Shown: positions 1-54,930 of the stretch, piece after piece | Numbering within the stretch: position 1 is the first letter of the stretch | Layout: the number at the start of each line of letters is the position of its first letter | Assembly: GCA_002189035.1 (NCBI GenBank) | Contig: NEEC01000019.1 | Span: 124,001 to 188,000, forward strand | Direction: 5' to 3' | From: Utricularia gibba | Lineage: Eukaryota > Streptophyta > Magnoliopsida > Lamiales > Lentibulariaceae | DNA: 64,000 nucleotides | Translations under genes and position numbers: made by a program | The notes under the pieces: model-generated | What the model was told of the DNA's origin: nothing | What the model saw: the letters and a program-made list of their open reading frames with translations, nothing else | The model's database searches: none

Positions 1-1871
1 GAGGTCAACTTTAAGTATAATAATGTTTTTTATATTATATAAAAAATAAATAAGAGGTGATCTTTCAATCTTTATACTATCTATGATTCGGATTGTCAAA
101 TGAGGAATGGTATGAGATTCATGAGAGTTGAGGCCTCACGGGCAATGTGGCTTGGGCTTAGAATCGATTTGGAGAATTTTATGGAAGATGAAGAGAGACG
201 AGAGAGGAATTAAATGCAAAGGTTGATAAAGTCTAGCAGAGGCATTGCTATTGTTGCCATTGATCATTGTGTGAAAATATGGCCATTACACGTCCAAATC
301 ACTACCTTAGTTTGATTTTGTGTTTTATCAAGAGTGAAATTTCATGGAGTCGATGACGAATAAGAAGAGGAAAATGATGAATGGAAAAGAGTTTTTACAT
401 CTAAAGTCGTTTAAAATAGCCGCATGTAAGCTCAAGTTAATTTAACAAGAGGTAAAAAAAGTAGTCCAACTATCCCCATACTCCTAGGTTTCAACTTTAG
501 AATTTATTTTTTAATTAAAAAATAGCATCCCACAAAAATTGATTGTACCCACTAAAAATGAACTTGGTTCAAACCTATATGATACACATTCGAGTTGAGA
601 CCCAAGTTAGGGTTGGGTCAGCAAGTTGACCACACCATTTTCCACCTGCACCCACACAAAAGTGCACACAAAAATTAACGTAGGTTGGAAGTGTTCGAGA
701 AGATGCTCCAATAAAGAAGGCTTGTGGCTTGGGTGTGTAGTGCCCGAAAAAGACTATAGACATAGTGAGAACTCATGAAGAATGTTCTGCTGATAAAGGG
801 CTGGGCATATAGCGCCCGTAGAATGTTGTCTCAATATATGCTCGAGAGCTGAGCGCCCAAGAACAACCTCCTGCATGTTGAAGATCCAAGAATGAGATCT
901 AACATAGCAAGGATATGAAAAACAATTGCATGTATATTGAGATAGACTCTTGCATTGTACTCATTGAGCAAGCAGGATCACATATGCAAGAGCCCAAAAG
1001 CTCTTGAGAATCAAATAAATGAAAAATGCCATATTCTTGAAAGACTTAATTTATGGCTACCATCATTGTTTGTATTGAAACTTGAAAGATATCACTTTGC
1101 TATAAGAATTGAATGTAGGGTAAGAGTGTTGATCCTATTAATTTAAGTGAGAGATTAATGAGACTCAAGTCAATAGCCATATATTTTACAAACATCTGGG
1201 AAAGCTCATTCAATGGTCATATCGACCTTTGGTTGGTATGGAAAACACAAGCGTTTAACCTTTACATAATTAGGCTCATTCCTTGCTTCAAAAAACGTCA
1301 AATTAAAACAATGCTCTTTAATTTTTTCTTCTCCTTTCCTCTAATATATTGGTTTACAAGAGTTTGTGTAATATGTGCAGCATAGCATAAAAAATGCTAC
1401 CGAAGACACATCACAATAAGTGATGCATTTGTTGGTGAACTATACCCCAAGAGGTAGATGCTCTTAGTAAATAATGAATTTGTTGTTGATGATAAAAGTT
1501 TTTTTCACAAATATTGAAATTTTTTTGTGTTGGGTAGGTTTTAGTGTTTTTGTGAAAAGATAAAAATACATAATTTTGGTAATTCAGAAAGCCCAAAACC
1601 TAGGTGTTGCTTGCACTTGAGCTATAAGTTTCATTGAAATGCAAAGTGATCTTCAAGAATGCGAGCTTGGTTTGGACTCCAAAGATAGAAATCAAAAGGA
1701 AGAATCTCTGAGTTTCTTCTTGAATGCAGTTGCTATAATGAGGAGAAAGCATCGAAGTTGGCATTTAATTTCTTGTATAGCCTAGAGAGAAAATTGTGAG
1801 TAGTTTGGTGAGTCGTGGCTAATTAGATATTCCTCCAAAAATCAAATAACTTCCATTAGGATTTTTTGTTG

Positions 1872-1902
<31 letters not shown>

Positions 1903-4130
1903 TAGTTTAACCATATTCTAGGTTTTATCTAGATTATGGTAATTATCTTAATTTATGTGTTTGATCTAATATTTTTAGCTAATTTTGTTTAAGTTTTATT
2001 AGAGGTGAACTTGTAGCAGGAAGTATGAGAAAGCAGGCATCACAGGGCGACAAAATAAATCTTCCCATATTGACATTTTTCTTGATTTTCGAAAGATTGC
2101 AGATGTTTAATGATGAGCCTTGATGTGCAATACATGGAAACCTCTTACAGATGAAAACTTAGATAGAAATAGTTCAATTTAGTAGAGATTTGAAAGAACA
2201 CCAATGGCAAAAGTCGCCGTCCCCGTTGTTTTGCCCTTCTTCTAAGGGGCACCATTCAATATTTCTTGGCCCGCTATTGGCCAAACTACTAGGGGCGCAT
2301 TCAATTTTTAATTCTAGTTTCAATTTTTCAATTTGAATGGGAGTTTAGACTTTGTTTATCTTTCTAAAGAATTTTTCCTCTAGATTCTCTCTAGAATTTG
2401 CTTTTATTTTCCTACCTTTGCATGATCATTCGAAGCTAGAAACTCTTGTTTCCATATTGGGAGACTCCCAGATCTACATTTCGTTAGTTAATTTCCATTT
2501 TTTTCTTTGAATCGGATCGGGTTCCGTATGTCTCTATATGATTATATTATGGTGTTTTTGTAACAACCTCCTTATTCAATATTCATGATTAGCGTATCAT
2601 TGCCTACGAGTTTTGAAGATGAACAACATGGAAAGAACCAATTCATGCCCTTTTGCCTCAAGGGAGACAACGTTTTATCTGTTATTGTATTTTGCGTTCA
2701 ATGAATAAATACTGACCTCGTATCTGAAGTCAATGACACTTGGGCACATGCACGCATTTCAATCATGAGGGCATGATGACAGGATCTCTTATCTTCCCGT
2801 TCATCCAAGGGGAGGCAATATCGCATTATTCTTGTGCCTCTTTGTAAGAGAGTATAAGAGAGGATAGACAATCTTTTACTCTTATAGTCAAGTACTTGAG
2901 AAAATTAGAGAAAAATGGAGATATAATGAACAAAATGGGGCAAGATTTCAATCCCAGAAACATTTTCTTTATTTTATGTTCATCACTTAAGTTCATTTCT
3001 CTTGTTTATTTATAATTCCCCTACTCAAACTGCATCATTACGTTTCTACCATCTTTTTCTCTATATGCTCGTTTATAAATCATGACATTTATATTCAGTT
3101 TAACTATACCTTTCACTAGAAAAACAACTATTAGTGTTCAACATCGGTATTACGCATTTTGTGTTTTACGAGTTTTGAAAATCTTAAATTTTTTGTGGAA
3201 ACAACATGCATCAACACACAATCTCCAATATTGGTTAAAGCATGTAATAAAAGAGAATTTTGTACGTCGTTGTAAGAATGATAATTCTCGTATTAAAAAA
3301 TTTATAAACCTAATTCCCAATCAAAATCAAGCAAATAAGAGTATATAGTGGAACAAGGATCGAACATGAAGAGCAATGTTTGCTACATAATAGTTAATTC
3401 TATTTTATCACAACGGAGTATTGTTGTGTATCGTTTTCTCAGAAAACTTTAATTATCAAAACAAAAAACACAATTAAATGTAGTACGAGTGTAGATTTCA
3501 AGAAATTGAGTGAGGTTGTGCTAAATTTGATCATATTATGCTATTTTTGGTGTTAAGATAGGAGATTAAGTGAATTAGAATAGGGAAAATGGCTAAAATT
3601 AACACTAGTAAATTTATTTTCATTAAAAACATGTTCTGGGAAATTTTCTACGTTAATCAAAGAGCTTAGGTGAGTTTACTGTTCATCTAAGCCTAGGTAC
3701 GACTGGCTCATTTGGGCCGAGCCTTGTATTTGATCAATTTTCAAAGTTGTTTTAGTACAGGGGTGGATGAAAAAAATAAGTCAGAAAGATGGTGAGCTAA
3801 GCTTTCCTACAGCACGCAATAGGGGCAGGCACAATCAAGTAGGGAGAGAACGGAGATTTAAGATGCATCAAGGGGATTTTTCGATGAGTTTGAATGAGCT
3901 TTAAGGAAGAAGACGAAGGAGGGGCAATTCCAGCATGACAGTTAAAGTTACCTCCAATACCCAAAGCCTTGCAGAACAATGATCTATTTGTACAAATAAG
4001 ACGATTGAAGCAGTTCCAAAGTAACACTAAAACCATCTTCATCTCCTAGAACAATAGTAGAACACTAGTAACCTTCCTAGATAACCTTAGAACTAGCCTA
4101 CACGAGGAGAAGAAGATGACCAATGCATCG
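1..4130. other. AT-rich intergenic DNA, no recognisable gene
   Basis: No reading frame here resembles a known protein on either strand; the open frames are short and AT-driven. Around 735-865 a GC-richer stretch carries several variants of a GCGCCC motif (near 738, 809 and 855), perhaps part of an old repeat. The rest looks like decayed repeat DNA that I cannot classify. Confidence 0.5.
1872..1899. repeat. (AT)14 microsatellite
   Basis: An uninterrupted run of about 14 AT dinucleotides, flanked by AT-rich intergenic DNA. Confidence 0.9.
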
Positions 4131-22919: not shown

Positions 22920-23284
22920 GGCCATGTTTGGTTGGACAATTTAGGTAGGTTTTCGTGTGGGTTTATAGATAAACCCACGTTTGGTACATGGGTTTCAAAC
23001 GAGTAAAAATAAACTCGCATGTTGTTTATATATTTGGTAGGAACCTATCGAGCTGGGTTTAATTAAATCTAAAGAGGATGGTCGGTTTAGCTAAACAAGG
23101 GCACTCCTTCCAATTCTACCTTCATCCTCATATAAATATAAATGTAGGTCTACCAGAAACCAGACTCAAGCATTGCAAATGCAGATCTATCTACCAATAT
23201 TTTTGAAAGTTGGAATTCCTACATATCTGTAGTAGATTTATTCAGATCTATAGCATATTTGTCCAGATCTATTCAAATATGTTG

Positions 23285-23346
23285 AAGAAGAAGAAAAAGA
23301 AAAGGAAGAAGAAGAAAAAAAAAAAGAAAGAAGAAGAAGAAGATGA
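23285..23346 (+). repeat. AAG/GAA-rich microsatellite
   Basis: Imperfect AAG and GAA run. The Lys- and Glu-rich frame over it (23210-23416) is a by-product, not a gene. Confidence 0.85.
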
Positions 23347-23412
23347 TGAAGATAAAGATAAATATGAAAATACTAACACCATGTCTATTATTGTGGGTTT
23401 TCGTTTTTTATG

Positions 23413-23536
23413 CTAAATATGAGTTTTTGTTTTGAAGATGAGTACCGCGTCTATTATTATATGGTGCTTGCTGTTAAATGTGAGTTTTTGTTTTAAAGAC
23501 GAGCACCGCATCTATTATTATACAATGCTCATTATA
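23413..23536 (+). repeat. 61-bp minisatellite, two copies plus a partial
   Basis: Blocks beginning AAATATGAGTTTTTG (about 23414) and AAATGTGAGTTTTTG (about 23475) are near copies, each holding a GAGTACCGC/GAGCACCGC and TCTATTATTAT core. A shorter, more diverged third unit precedes them near 23370. Confidence 0.7.
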
Positions 23537-23867
23537 AAATAAAATTTCAACTAAGTACTGTGATTTATACTATATGATGCTCGATTGAATTTATAAAATG
23601 ATATAAAAAACTAAAATATGTGATAATTTATTTTAATTAACTAAAAGATATATTGGTAATTTTGTGTATATATTTATCATATATCTAATTTTATACTCAT
23701 GTACTAAACGTGATTTTATCTTAAACTCAAATAAATTAAACTCATCAACCAAATATGAATAATCTTCTAAACTCATAAAATCCATTTACCTAAACCCAAA
23801 CAAACTAAACCCGAGTTTAAACGCTACCTAACAACCAAACATGGCTTTAAGGTTTTGTGATAATCAA

Positions 23868-28124: not shown

Positions 28125-28808
28125 GGGTCTTATTTGATACGCATGTTAAGATCCCTTAACATGCGTTTTAAATTAAAACTCTATTTGATAAGAATTGTGT
28201 ATTTCCACAACCTTGTTTATCTAAACATGTAAGAAATAAATTTTGATGTGTTAAGCTAAACATAGGGGGAGGGGCCTACATTTACCCTAACAATTTCTTA
28301 TTATTCCTATTTTATCCCTCTCATCAAAACATGATACCTATTGTTATCAACCATATTCCATCACATATCTTTAGGTAATTGTTTGTATTCTTTGGTTTTT
28401 TTAGCTAATCGTCATCTCTTCAAGCAAATGAGACAATTACTATTATCATTGGAATACACGATTGTAACAGATGATATATCTATCATGGAATTGTTTCATC
28501 TTCTTTAAGTTTTACATAAGTTTATTTAATTTCTTATCAGAGAAGAACCTTGGAAACTTTGATGAACCAAATTGGAATAATAAGGCAAATAATTGTAAAA
28601 AATATTTAAATAATAATGAGTGTGTTTTGGACAATTTTCATGAAACTATTTATTTAATAATAATCTACCAAACATAAAATATTATAAACATTCATGTTTA
28701 TATATAATATTACCAAACGCATATTTAATCTTAACAATAGATATTTGTTTATCTAAACAATAATAATCTTAACAAACTGTAAATTAGACAATCGTACCAA
28801 ACGAGACC
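28125..28808. mobile_element. MITE-like element with imperfect inverted ends
   Basis: The left end GGGTCTTATTTGATACG and the reverse complement of the right end (GGTCTCGTTTGGTACG) match at most positions. About 680 bp, no coding potential. No clear target duplication, so the family is uncertain (PIF/Harbinger or hAT). Confidence 0.45.
28139..28166. repeat. perfect 12-bp hairpin inside the MITE-like element
   Basis: ACGCATGTTAAG and its exact reverse complement CTTAACATGCGT are separated by ATCC. Confidence 0.9.
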
Positions 28809-47590: not shown

Positions 47591-50223
47591 TATTCAATTT
47601 GTCAAAACCGAGGGTTAGATCGGTTTAATCAATATAGAACTCAATTTATTATTTAAAAATAAACAATATTTTCCATTTTTTTTTCCACTCATTTCATTGC
47701 TTTTGCACAAGATTTTTTTCATTTAACTATGAAGAAGCGTGGCACTAAGAATGCCGAGGATTCAAAATGCAAGAGACAAGGGTCTTTAATGAAGGAAACG
47801 AGTATGTTATTAGCTAATGAAAGCGAAACTTTTATGTTCAAACTTCATGTTGATGGTAAAGTAGATCTTCAATCGAATTTTTACGTTAATGGAATTCAGC
47901 ATTTGGTGGGATTGTCTGATGTTTCTGAGTTTACATATAATATGCTTGCTAGGTTGGTTTCAGATTTGGGGATTTCTAGAAAAATTAGAGTTTTCATGAA
48001 ATGGGTAGACGTGAATGAAATTTTGTATAATTTGTTGGTTGATGATGATTACAAATATGTACAACAACGCCTACTTGAATTGGAACCAATTGAAATTTTT
48101 ATTGATATAGTAGATGAATGTGAAGCCGTTGATGAGGTTGGTAAATCTATGAATGGGAGATTATTAAATGATTTCTCAAATGATATCTCCAACTTGAGAG
48201 AAAATGCAGAAGTTGATGTTGTTTTTCACCAAATGTGGATAGATTTAGATGCAAATATTATTGCAAATGAAAATATATATGATGAGGTAAATGCTAATGT
48301 TAACTCAGAGTATAGTGATATAGAATTTTAGACTGATGAGATATATCAGTTTCAGAAGAATGAAGAGCTGATTTCTAACTACGGTAATCACAATATTGAG
48401 TTTGATGGACATGATGGGACCATTGCTGCAAAACTTGCACATGATAACTTGAACATGGAGGCAGATATGAATGCAGCTGAATCTGGAGATGATTTTGTGA
48501 GTATTAATGGATCAAGTGATGATGAAATTAGTAAGAATACACTTTATAATCCCAAGAGTGATGCTGATGATCCAAACTTAGTAAAGGGATTGGTATTTAA
48601 CAGTCTGAAGAAGCAAAATATGCAATTCAGATACATGGAATTCTACGTGGAAAAGACTTAATATTTAGAACTGATAAATCAAGAGTTATAGCTAAATGTA
48701 GAACATTAGGATGTGGATGGTACATTCATGTGTCCAAGACAAAGAATGATAAAGGTTGGATAGTTAAAAGTCATAATTCTGATCATCATGGATGTTCAAG
48801 AACTATAGAAAATTTGGGATTAAGAAATACTTATCTTGTGAAAAAATTCATTCATAAAATTATAGAAAATCAAAAAATTGGATTAAAAGAATTTAGGGCA
48901 CACATGGTCAAGATACTTCGAACAGATATTTTCAAGTCGAAGGCTTTTAGGACACGTAAGAAGGCAATGGAAATGTTGCATAAATTTGAAGCAGAGTAGT
49001 GGAACTTAATTCGAAGTTACTGTGCAGAGTTACGAAGAACAAATCCAGGTTCAACCATACATCTAAAAGTCTCTGATGATAAAAAACTAGAGGATCAAAA
49101 ATTCGTTATTTTGGCAGATTTGAGAGATAATTTCAAGGCAGGGTGTAGAAGAGTAGTTGAGTCGATGAGTGTTTTTTAAAAGGAGGTTTTAATGGTCAAT
49201 TACTCAGCTTTAGAGATAGATGCTAATTATGAAATATTTCCCATCGCATATTCAGTTGTTGAAATTGAAAATGTATACACATGGAAAGAATTTTTAAGAC
49301 TTTTGAAGGAGGATTTGGAAATTGTTGATGAGAAGGAATGAACATTTATTTTTGATAAGCAGAAGGGTTTGTTAGAAGCATTTGATGATCTACTGCTTGA
49401 TGTGTAAAATAGATTTTGTGTGTGTCATTTGCATAGTAACATGAAATTAGCTGGACATGGTGGTATCAAATTGAAAAATTTGTTATGGGCAACAGCTAAA
49501 GCCACGAAAAGAGAGGTTTTTCAAGCTCACATGGAAGAAATTAAAGCTACGGATTTAGAGGAATATAAGTGGTTGTTAAAGAGACCTACGCAACAATGGA
49601 GTAGAGCATTTTTCGTAACAAGCAATAAATATGATGCTCTACTTAATAATGCTTGTGAATGTTTCAACAGTGCAATACTTGAGATTAGAGAAAAACCCAT
49701 TATTGGTTTATTAGAAGGAATTAGAAATAATTTATTGGTAAGAGTTACTGCAAATTTGGATATTTCTAAAAAATGGACGGATGTAATTTGTCCAAGGATA
49801 AGGAAAAAGTTTGATAACATTATGGAGGAAGTAGGAGACATGATTGCCATAAAATCAGATAGAAATAATTACCAAGTAATGGGACCATATGAGCAACACA
49901 TGGTTGATATGGAACCCAAAATTTGTAGTTGTAGAAAATGGGAACTTAGGGCTCGTTTGGTATATAGGTATTTATTGGATATAGATTGGGTTAAAAAATA
50001 AACCTTCGTTTGGTTAACTAATTTTCACCTGTTTTTAAAATCTGAGTTTTGTTATTAAACTTGGGTTTTGGGTATTTTTGTAAACCCACCAAGAAGATGG
50101 GTTTTGTAAAAGTAAATAATAATAGTCTATTTTACCCTTCTACTTAATCAAAATTTTTACATGCGGATAAAATACTTCTCCTCTTTCATCTTCTTCAAAC
50201 AATTTGCTTGTGTTTTTAATAGG

Positions 50224-51151
50224 ATGGAGGCAGAGGGAGGTAGTAAAGGGAGGCGTAGGTGTTGGTCCATTCACGATGAGAAGATGCTAATCATCGCTTT
50301 GAAAGAAATCTCTTCTACCGGTTGGAAGTTGGAGAATGGCTTCAAGACAGGGTATTTGACTGAGTTAGAAAAAATTCTGAAACGACAGATTCCAAGTACA
50401 GATTTGAGGTCAAAGCCACATATAGAATCGAAAGTTCATGCTTGGAGAGCTATGTATGCAACACTGTCTACAATTCTATCAAGATCCGGTACTGGTTGGA
50501 ATGACTCTAGTCATCAAGTAGATGCTTCTGTTGAAATGTGGGATGAGTTAGAAAGGGTAATAATTCTGTCAATGTGTTTTTTGTACTTGTTTTTTTTTTT
50601 ATCTCAACATAGATTTTTTTGCATTGTAGACTATTGCAAATGCGAGCAAAGTGAGGGGTAAATCTTTTCCATTTTACTCAGATTGGTCAGATATTTTCGG
50701 AAAAGATCGAGCCACTGGAGAAAAGGGGATGGACTACCACACTGCTGCGGAAGTCATGGCAGCTTCATCAAACACATCTGATTTCAATGTGTTTATCGGT
50801 GAAGATCCAATATTACCGGATGAACCAATTTCTGGGTCAATTCGTAATGGAGATGGCTCTTCTACAGCATCAGAAGATCCAACACCACCATCTCGTAAAA
50901 GAAAATGTCGTTTAATTAGTCCAATGGAGAAGCTCATTGAAGTTATTAATGAAGGCTCCAAAGATCAAAAGGCACAATTTACCGAGGTATGTGCACGATT
51001 TGGAAAACGAATTGAATTTGAGAAAGATGAAAAGGAGGATGCAGTTCTTGGATTGATACTAGCAATGCCACTTCAAATGTCGTTGATGGAGCGTCATGAA
51101 GTAACAAAAGTAATTATGGAGGATCATAGGTCGTTGAAACCACGCCCGTAG
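50224..51151 (+). CDS. PIF/Harbinger ORF1: Myb/SANT-like DNA-binding protein
   Basis: Two exons, 50224-50556 and 50630-51151, give 284 residues. The start is the first ATG (MEAEGGSKGRRRCWS). Residues about 10-105 form a Myb/SANT-like (Myb_DNA-bind_3) domain with the pattern W-S-x-x-x-D-E-x-x-L-I and later KVHAWRAMYATLSTILSRSGTGWN, followed by DIFGKDRATGE. The middle is Ser/Pro-rich with a basic PPSRKRKCR, a possible nuclear signal, and the C-terminus is helical. In this superfamily ORF1 works with the transposase, binding element ends and aiding nuclear entry. Many host plant proteins share this domain, but the position inside the element assigns it here. Confidence 0.88.
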
Positions 51152-51617
51152 ACACATGCAGCAGTACCACAATGCCACACGGGCGTGGTTTATGCATAAA
51201 CCATGCCCATGTGGCATTCGATGAACTCATGAAGTACTTGGTTAACGACATCAATCACTTTGTTGTAAAAAGGCATTAATGAGGCTACTTTTGATCGACG
51301 CACGAAATAGAAAAACTAAAAATGTGAAAACCATTTAAATCATGAAGTATGGCACTAAAAGCTAACTTCCTCCTAGTGAATGCATTTGTTTTATCCGATA
51401 ACCAGAAAATAGGATTAGGAAGGGTTGAACATTAAAATAAAAAAATAAAAGCCTGAGTTAATAAACAGTTATACATCATCATCATCCTGAAATACATAAT
51501 GATCATAAATGAAGTCTGTTGCAAGCAAACTAGGAAGGAGCATTGATGTTACACTAGACATGAACGATAGGCTATTACACTAGACATGGAGATAAACCTA
51601 GAAATTAAGACATTACT

Positions 51618-52984
51618 TCACTGATGCCATTGATTGTACCAAGTCATTGCCAATGAATCTCGCCACTGCATCCAAGCATTACTCGAGTCCAATGTATCTA
51701 TGTAGTCATCATCTCCTTGTAATGTGTTGTCTACATAACTTTGTTGCAATAAACTTTCAAGAGGATCATCCGGATCAGTGATTCGAATAAAGTTGTGGAG
51801 AAGTGCACATGCCAAAATAATGAAACTGAGTATATCCATATTGTAAAAGCAACTATCTCGTAGAATCCCCCAACGTATTTTAAGTAAACCAAAAGTTCTC
51901 TCAATTATATTCCTCGCTTTGGAGTGTCTCAAGTTAAATAATTCTCTTGAATTTTGAGGTGCTAAGTTACCGTTGCCCCATTCTTTCAAGTGATATCGAA
52001 CTCCACGATAGGGTGTAAGAAATCCTTCACAATTCATATAACCATTATCACATAGATAATAATTTCCTGAAATAATTTGATAAACCAATTAAAAAATTAA
52101 ATGAAGCTATTATGATCTCAATGGGCTGAAATACTTCATATAATAACAATGAATAAGAATATACCTCGAGGAACATGAAATCCATTGTTCCTTGTTAGAG
52201 CATCTCGTAAAACTTTGCTATCTGCAGCTGATCCTTCCCATCCAGATAACACGTATACAAATCTCATGTGTATATCACACACTTCAAGTACATTTAAACA
52301 AGTGTATCCTTTTCTACAACGATATTGGCCTTGTTCATCAACACGCACTTTTGCCTGAATGTATGTTCCATCCAAAGCTCCAAGACATCCCTGCCATTAA
52401 GAAAAAAAATGAAGAACCACATATAATTCAAATAAAAACACCTGGATGCTCACCACAAAATATTTCCAAGGAGTTTCTTCAAAATTTGTTGTCACTAGTG
52501 TAGGTTTCATGAGTAGGATGGGGTGTAGCTTTATTATAGTCCTCAAAACCTCATGAAAGTATTTATGTATTGTGTGCTTCGATCTAATGAAATCATGAGA
52601 TTGAATGCGTACCTTCTTATGATGAGATAAAACTCCCAAAAAAATAGATACTTTCTCAAGTATAGACACATGCCTTGAATTCATTAAACCACCAGCATTT
52701 TCCAACAAACTACACAATCTACCGAAGGCATTTCTAGTCATTCGCAAATTATCCAAACAAGCAAAATCACTATAACCAATAAGATGCTGAAGATGCCAAG
52801 ACTGCATATTCATTCTACCAATCATGGAGTACTTTTGTTTTTTACTTTTCTGATTTTGTTTAGCTTGCTCTAGCAAAAGAGCAAGTAATAGGCACAACCA
52901 AATGAATTGTGAAAAAATGGCTTGTTGAAGAACAAGGAACATCATGAATTCTAAAAACTCATCCATCCTACAACAAAAGCCCAT
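51618..52984 (-). CDS. PIF/Harbinger DDE transposase (HARBI1-like)
   Basis: Three exons, 52984-52454, 52390-52165 and 52066-51618, join in phase to 401 residues with no stop. The N-terminal helical region has RMTRNAFGRLCSLL and HTIHKYFHEVLRTIIKLHP. The catalytic DDE domain has GCLGALDGTYI (Asp184), CDNGY (Asp259) and ARNIIERTFGLLKIRWGIL (Glu308), plus the conserved WEGSAADSKVL (Asp234). The C-terminal ACALLHNFI is also typical. Such enzymes cut at element ends and insert into TTA/TAA sites. The first ATG (52984) lies 18 bases upstream of a second (52966); either may be used. The element appears to retain everything needed to encode its own transposition proteins. Confidence 0.9.
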
Positions 52985-53869
52985 TCAAATACAGAATATG
53001 GTTAGAAAATAAAAAAAACATTTCATGCTTGAATTACCCACATAACATTGAAATGAAATCACGAGCAAGAACTCATCAGGAGCGTTGGGACTTGAACCGT
53101 AAAGAACTCGAGCAGTTTTCTTGCTAGAAAATTCAACTTGAATAGCGTTTTAGGGGAACTTCAATGGCACTAGTCTGCGTAGAGGGAATAGCAATTTTCT
53201 CTCAAGGAACACAAGACTCAGATTTGGGGAAAAGTAATTATATCAATTAATAAGGGTATAATGGTAAAATCTCATTAAAACCAGAATTTTAACATATCCA
53301 ACCAAACACACCTTTTATTATCTCTTGTAAAATAAACTATCACGAAACTAATTAAACCCATCCATGATGGTTTTATTTTACCTAGTTTCTAAAAGCACCC
53401 TAATACTAAAACATCATACCAAATGAGCCCTTAGGGGAATCCCATGTAAGCTACTGTTGCTGTAATGTGGGCAAGGAAAGAAAAACCTGAAAACTATATT
53501 CATGAGTGTTATGTTGTTGAAACTTATATCCGTTGCTATACTCTTGCTGTGATGGGAATAACAAGTTCAATTTTTTGGTCAAAAGTTGATATTCCTTCCC
53601 CAATCCCACCCAAATATGAGAGAAGGTAGGTCGTCCTAAAAAATTGTGAAAAAGGCAACTAAATGAGTCACCACCTGCACACAAGAATACCAATAGATTT
53701 GTTGGCATGATTAGGATGAATAATTAGTATAGCATATGCAAACAATGAGGTCATAGTGCCAAGACTTGCAAATATACAGGCACAAAGCTAGCTGAAAGTG
53801 TTCAAAAAAGAGTTAAGCAGGTATTTATTAAATTCTATTGTTTCATAAAATTTTTTTTTTATCAATTTT

Positions 53870-54930
53870 ACTCAATCATATTTGTAATAAACCTTTTGTG
53901 TGATTAGATCTCAGGTTGCAAAACAAAGTCTCAATTAATAGTTGATGATTCAAGTCATATCGCAAGGGAAATTATCCCAATTATCCCAAGTGCTATTACA
54001 CAAGAAATTCAGGTGATGGTAAATTTCGAATTTAACTAAATTTTCATTAAAATCTGAATATGTTTGTCATACTATGATTTTTTAGGCCAATAATTGTGTG
54101 AATAACTCTTCACAACAACCTCTTATCATTACTCAAAGTGGGTCTGAAGTTATTCCAAGTGGAACAGTGAAAACAAATCAGGTTGTTATTTAATCTATGT
54201 TGTTTATATGTGTATTTACATATATTTTATTATATATATTGATAATTAGGCAAAAACGACCATGCAAAATGCTGAGTACACGGGGAACAGGTGGAGGCAT
54301 AGTTCAAAATGAATGGAATAGAAAACATCATGAAAAGGTATAGTTGGGTGTTTACACAATGGAGAATTTAGAGGTAAAATATCGAAGTGAGATTTATATT
54401 TGATTGCTGTTAAATTTTATTGAAAGATTTAAAGTTTAATAGTAATTGAAAGAATATATCAAAGTTTAATGTACAAATGTGATCTACATGAAGTTTCTTT
54501 TTACTCCATTTTTTACTGGTTTCAAAGATTATCTAGAACTGAAACATTTGATTTTAAAATAAAGATGAAAATGCTCTATCGTCACCATTTTATATTAGAG
54601 TCGTCTTTAGTATATAATGTTGAAAGAATGAGTAGTATTGATGATAGTACTTTTTTGGTTGCATTTTTTGCAGACCAAGCTACAATTGCTATATAAGAAA
54701 AAGAAGGGAACCTCTTCAAGCACAACAATGTTTCAGGTTTGTGACAATTATTGATGTTAATGCTAATTCAAGCTTTTCCATAACCAATTATTTTTTTTGT
54801 AGATATCACAAACTATGACACCTATAAATGTACCTATCATTATCAAAAGAGGTCAAAATTTCATCACCCTTTCAAACTTGAAAAATTCAGTGAATGTTTT
54901 CCATGCCAAAGATGATGGTAATTAAACATA
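53870..54930 (+). pseudogene. possible 3' exons of the MULE gene
   Basis: Several short open pieces between AG and GT sites (about 53908-54015, 54086-54182, 54250-54310, 54800-54920) are Ser/Thr/Gln/Ile-rich and would extend the transposase C-terminus past the zinc knuckle. No domain recognised; inference from position only. Confidence 0.3.

Follow-up and report, generated by a model that had tools for sequence, protein, structure and literature searches.

A young, probably non-autonomous PIF/Harbinger transposon with a truncated ORF1 in a decayed MULE

PIF-like elements such as AtPIF2, OsPIF2, PePIF1 and MtPH of Medicago belong to PIF/Harbinger, an already well-known plant superfamily of DNA transposons. 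They carry terminal inverted repeats (TIRs) of 14-25 bp with the motif G(N)5GTT and a TTA or TAA target-site duplication (TSD), and they encode a Myb/SANT protein, ORF1, together with a DDE transposase of ~400 aa whose gene often has two introns; deletion derivatives are also found (PMC2213677, PMC6327408). Ping and Pong of rice, with mPing, likewise form a two-protein system with Tourist-type deletion derivatives, and both proteins are indispensable for transposition in the superfamily (PMC2836001). In Ping, HDP2, NAIF1 and ALP2, it is the C-terminal portion of ORF1 or the Myb protein that binds the transposase or nuclease (PMC7282668).

The element described here, which lies in a window of 64 kb (the whole stretch of DNA that was analysed), is a PIF-type PIF/Harbinger DNA transposon. 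It shares the features listed above with the PIF-like elements, including a Myb/SANT ORF1 (284 aa, compared to about 303 in AtPIF2 and OsPIF2), but unlike theirs its ORF1 is without the C-terminus. Its two genes are convergent whereas those of PePIF1 run head-to-tail, and gene order is known to vary. Compared with Ping/Pong, it follows the PIF and not the Pong pattern in its TIR and in the layout of its genes, an assignment made by resemblance only; in contrast to mPing, no amplified MITE family was seen in the family of this element.

Borders, host and age of the insertion

The element spans exactly 49949-53430. Its ends and the flanking host, a MULE, are as follows.

48400..49948, plus strand: left part of the host MULE, decayed, with the SWIM C-x-C at the join; 93% identical to C2:1987465-1989026 and C409:1157614-1159179
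49946..49948, no strand: left TTA TSD; a single TTA at two empty paralogous sites
49949..49963, plus strand: left TIR, GGGCTCGTTTGGTAT; siblings have the same ends
53416..53430, minus strand: right TIR, inverted reading GGGCTCATTTGGTAT
53431..53433, no strand: right TTA TSD; a single TTA at the empty paralogous sites
53434..54400, plus strand: right part of the host MULE; 92-94% identical to C2:1986500-1987464 and C409:1156668-1157613

The two TIRs match at 14 of 15 bp, and GGGCTCGTTTGGTAT agrees with the definition of PIF ends (14-25 bp with G(N)5GTT; PMC2213677). The 3-bp TSD is TTA in the window and TTA, TAC, ATA or TAA in other copies. When the insert was removed in silico, the united flanks read ICSCRKWELRGIPCK, and a SWIM match (1.1e-4) spanned the junction. 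Two MULE paralogues, C2:1986500-1989026 and C409:1156668-1159179, which are 92-94% identical to the host on both sides, cross the insertion point uninterrupted with a single TTA, reading CSCRKWELRGIPCKHA. The borders of the element are therefore proven by two empty paralogous sites. The original prediction had described 14/15-bp inverted ends with a TTA duplication, exact borders and nesting in the SWIM motif of a dead MULE, and all of these were borne out; its assignment to PIF/Harbinger likewise fits the TIRs, the 3-bp TSD, the Myb/SANT ORF1 and the DDE transposase.

The frame of the host is broken by a private 1-bp deletion right after the CK codons. The window MULE has stops of its own and its paralogues carry different ones, which indicates that these copies decayed separately. 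The 9-bp PIF target consensus is reportedly CWCTTAGWG, as Zhang et al. are said to have described in 2001. By eye, the insertion site of the C413 sibling, CTCTTAGTG, fits this consensus and the window site agrees at 7 of 9 positions, an agreement that is not intended as proof.

The private branch of the element amounts to 0.9% by a polarised count and to 1.4% by a three-point estimate, compared to 3.3% (three-point) for the host MULE. Since the branch of the element, ~1.4%, is the shorter, most of the host's private decay preceded the insertion, and the proposal of a recent arrival was supported in this relative sense. At substitution rates of 7e-9 to 1.3e-8 per site per year, the upper bound on the insertion age would be about 0.7-2 million years, or more if the rate were that of a slow-evolving tree.

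Coding capacity in the window copy and its siblings

We searched ~100 Mb of the genome in 516 contigs and found a small family of about 14 members. The coding relatives are C413 (93-97% identical over two stretches), C505 (97%, right part only), C3 (86-94%), C98 (88-92%), C142:51837 (88-90%, partial) and C402 (72-76%). The closest copies, C413:3158262-3162577 and C505:220539-222802, are 97% identical over the transposase half and have the same 3' ends. As siblings do exist, the predicted mobile element is not called into question on that account. The genes of the window copy were read as follows.

50224..50556, plus strand: ORF1 exon 1, with the Myb/SANT-like domain PF12776 (splice reading, Pfam)
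50557..50629, plus strand: ORF1 intron, GT-AG, at a position common to the related C2/C304 elements
50630..51151, plus strand: truncated exon 2 of ORF1; the native sequence extends to 51139 (...DHRSLK) and is followed by the foreign codons PRP and a stop
51140..51223, no strand: 84-bp foreign sequence; sibling matches end at element base 1191 and resume at 1276
51171-51218: strong hairpin inside the foreign sequence (z -3.9)
51618..52066, minus strand: transposase exon 3, with D253, E302 and the stop
52165..52390, minus strand: transposase exon 2, with D178 and the private G207E
52454..52966, minus strand: transposase exon 1

Spliced ORF1 (50224-50556 joined to 50630-51151) is open over 284 codons and matches Myb_DNA-bind_3 (PF12776; 7.8e-8), as the Myb/SANT gene of a PIF element would. 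The foreign piece stands in place of the ORF1 C-terminus, the 3' UTR and the intergenic spacer. As a result, the last three residues, PRP, are foreign, and the final 23 residues found in the family are gone; with its tail the protein would have 304 aa, next to the 303 aa of AtPIF2 and OsPIF2 (PMC6327408). The sibling ORF1s in C413, C3 and C98 run on through the tail, which in C413 reads FFLGLKELERITFVEEILAKLRV and in C98 itself has a stop, and beyond it these copies have a spacer of several hundred bases. A query with 79 residues of the ORF1 C-terminus matched 25 places in the genome besides the window, many of them weakly, and every one of these matches extends beyond residue 56, the point at which the window copy ends. 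The C2 and C304 families, 37% identical to the query, reach its last residue (for example, RIFLGLKDNDKEEMVKGMLKKINV). The truncating junction itself had no second occurrence in the ~100 Mb and 516 contigs searched. Because the tail is conserved in siblings and in distant families while the junction is unique, the sequence comparison indicates that the window ORF1 is truncated, and that the truncation is invisible from one copy alone. The earlier reading of a 284-residue Myb/SANT ORF1, open after a GT-AG intron, thus stands as to the frame and the Myb match but fails at the C-terminus, which is foreign and 23 residues short, and the element cannot be called apparently intact.

Repeat units similar to the 84-bp piece were found at C244:1720493 and in contig C349. 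The latter (43 kb; L063, C349:1-9000) has repeats about 2.4 kb apart with subrepeats of 61-62 bp, CTCGATCC... and CCACGCCCGTGTG..., that are related to the foreign piece.

The transposase is open across two GT-AG introns and matches DDE_Tnp_4 (PF13359; 1.8e-22) and Plant_tran (PF04827; 2.5e-7). It has 395 aa from a conserved ATG or 401 from an upstream ATG at 52984. The C413 copy has lost 4 bp at the latter, which is less conserved and therefore the less likely start. The three DDE residues expected of a PIF/Harbinger transposase are D178, D253 and E302, which correspond, minus 6, to D184, D259 and E308 in the originally predicted 401-residue protein, and the prediction of an open transposase was confirmed. 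A search of solved structures returned only chance matches (E 0.05 or worse). Both transposase introns occur at the same places in the C2 element (L035), with GT and AG present, while the C304 element (L037) has the first in common but no longer the donor side of the second. The break in ORF1 at residue 111 is also common to the window copy and the related C2 and C304 elements, and the family sharing these intron positions is about 60% identical in protein. Splicing at the predicted introns is thus well supported.

Within the ~100 Mb searched, no other member of the family has an unbroken transposase. Compared with the window copy, C413 keeps the full ORF1 tail, but its ORF1 is frameshifted and its transposase is broken by one stop and, near the end, by a deletion of 2 bp; C505 has no ORF1, and a stop and a frameshifting deletion of 2 bp disrupt its transposase. 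The C3 and C98 transposases have several lesions each. The substitution G207E, private to the window copy, lies in the catalytic domain, past the first catalytic residue and before the second. Measured against C413 and C505, which form a trio of close copies with the window element, dN and dS were about equal, at 0.025/0.026 and 0.018/0.021, compared to a dN/dS of about 0.4-0.5 against older copies, so that the recent history of the transposase looks unconstrained.

Capacity for autonomous movement

We consider it likely that the element is a young, already decaying and non-autonomous member of PIF/Harbinger with a truncated ORF1. It would have moved by cut-and-paste into a TTA inside the MULE relic no earlier than roughly one to two million years ago. 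The conserved ORF1 C-terminus would have been removed by a deletion and the 84-bp foreign hairpin sequence put in its place, with the transposase frame left open. An autonomous PIF element would be expected to have a complete ORF1 with its C-terminal part, and here PRP and a stop replace 23 conserved residues. Its transposase would also be expected to be open with conserved sites unchanged; the frame here is open and the DDE residues are present, but the protein has the private G207E. Judging from their position and conservation, the lost residues probably belong to the contact with the transposase. With the part of ORF1 that docks the transposase in related systems lost, the element would most likely be immobile alone, and any movement would need ORF1 from another copy; an intact helper may lie outside the ~100 Mb in 516 contigs searched. 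The open transposase, the well-kept state of both ends and the shortness of the lost tail weigh against non-autonomy.

An open transposase with its DDE residues, the intact Myb domain, the near-perfect TIRs with their TSD and an insertion later than most of the host decay, would be expected if the ORF1 tail were dispensable and the two window proteins could still assemble on the ends and move the element. We regard this as unlikely. The tail is conserved as far as distant families, and in related systems the half of ORF1 to which it belongs is the one that binds the transposase; the truncation junction was found in no further copy within the ~100 Mb searched, so there is no visible sign of movement since the truncation; dN and dS are about equal; and at site 207, where the window copy has E, 33 of 36 genomic relatives have G, A, C or T, the 36 including overlapping loci of the same copies. 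We therefore do not retain the suggestion of a candidate autonomous element, since its ORF1 is truncated at a junction private to this copy. MITE studies could make use of the element if it had kept its activity, but the evidence speaks against this.

The hairpin region could also be an assembly error, the real locus having a complete ORF1. The neighbouring sequence in C413 is a long fold-back, and such repeats collapse easily. However, about 0.6-0.8 kb of non-repetitive sequence, the ORF1 3' end and the spacer, was lost as well, which is more than a simple hairpin collapse explains, and we judge an artefact to be quite improbable. Even slighter is the chance that the truncated ORF1 acts as a repressor, occupying the ends without recruiting the transposase and so competing against its own family. 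Domain anatomy would permit this, as the DNA-binding domain is kept and the transposase-binding half partly lost, and the copy number of the family is small, yet only one copy bears the truncation, and there is no visible sign of selection for its retention. Non-autonomy through loss of the ORF1 tail is thus the explanation we prefer. The case is largely ordinary for plant genomes and contributes a copy whose borders are well defined and whose empty sites are proven. It also illustrates that open frames alone mislead: without siblings, a truncated ORF1 looks complete.

Short derivatives and neighbouring repeats

A parent of an amplified Tourist-like MITE family would be expected to have many short copies that are near-identical to its own ends. 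We found about six short internal-deletion derivatives of ~340-680 bp, in C3, C244, C451, C413 and C2, that are 75-88% identical to the window element and 83-88% among themselves. From these identities, the derivatives are older than the window copy and do not stem from a recent burst. Several siblings and derivatives have clear 3-bp duplications (TTA, TAC, ATA, TAA). The element had been proposed to drive MITE-like units such as the one at 22920-23846 of the window. This was not supported, as the subterminal comparison with that MITE revealed no homology; the family's own derivatives predate the window copy. The unit at 22920-23846 was rejected as a derivative, as the two share only a 28-bp match at chance level and its TIR is different; it represents a separate MITE family with the TIR GGCCATGTTTGGTTG and a TTA duplication. 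At 28126-28808 of the window there are degenerate Harbinger-like inverted ends ~683 bp apart. This region was rejected as a second member because its TIR-like pair is 2-3 mismatches off and has no matching 3-bp duplication.

Other insertions and repeats were seen in the siblings. Between its ORF1 and transposase, the C413 sibling contains a fold-back (L051, about 2660-2990) flanked by an inverted ~30-bp duplicate of the element itself. The C505 copy (L052, C505:219000-226000; copy at 1537-3803) has GGGCGCGTTTGG-type ends by TTA close on both sides, perhaps those of another nested PIF-type MITE. The C3 copy (L053) is interrupted by 1547 bp inserted between the right end and the start of the transposase, and the spacer separating ORF1 from the transposase contains a 59-bp AT-rich tandem repeat.
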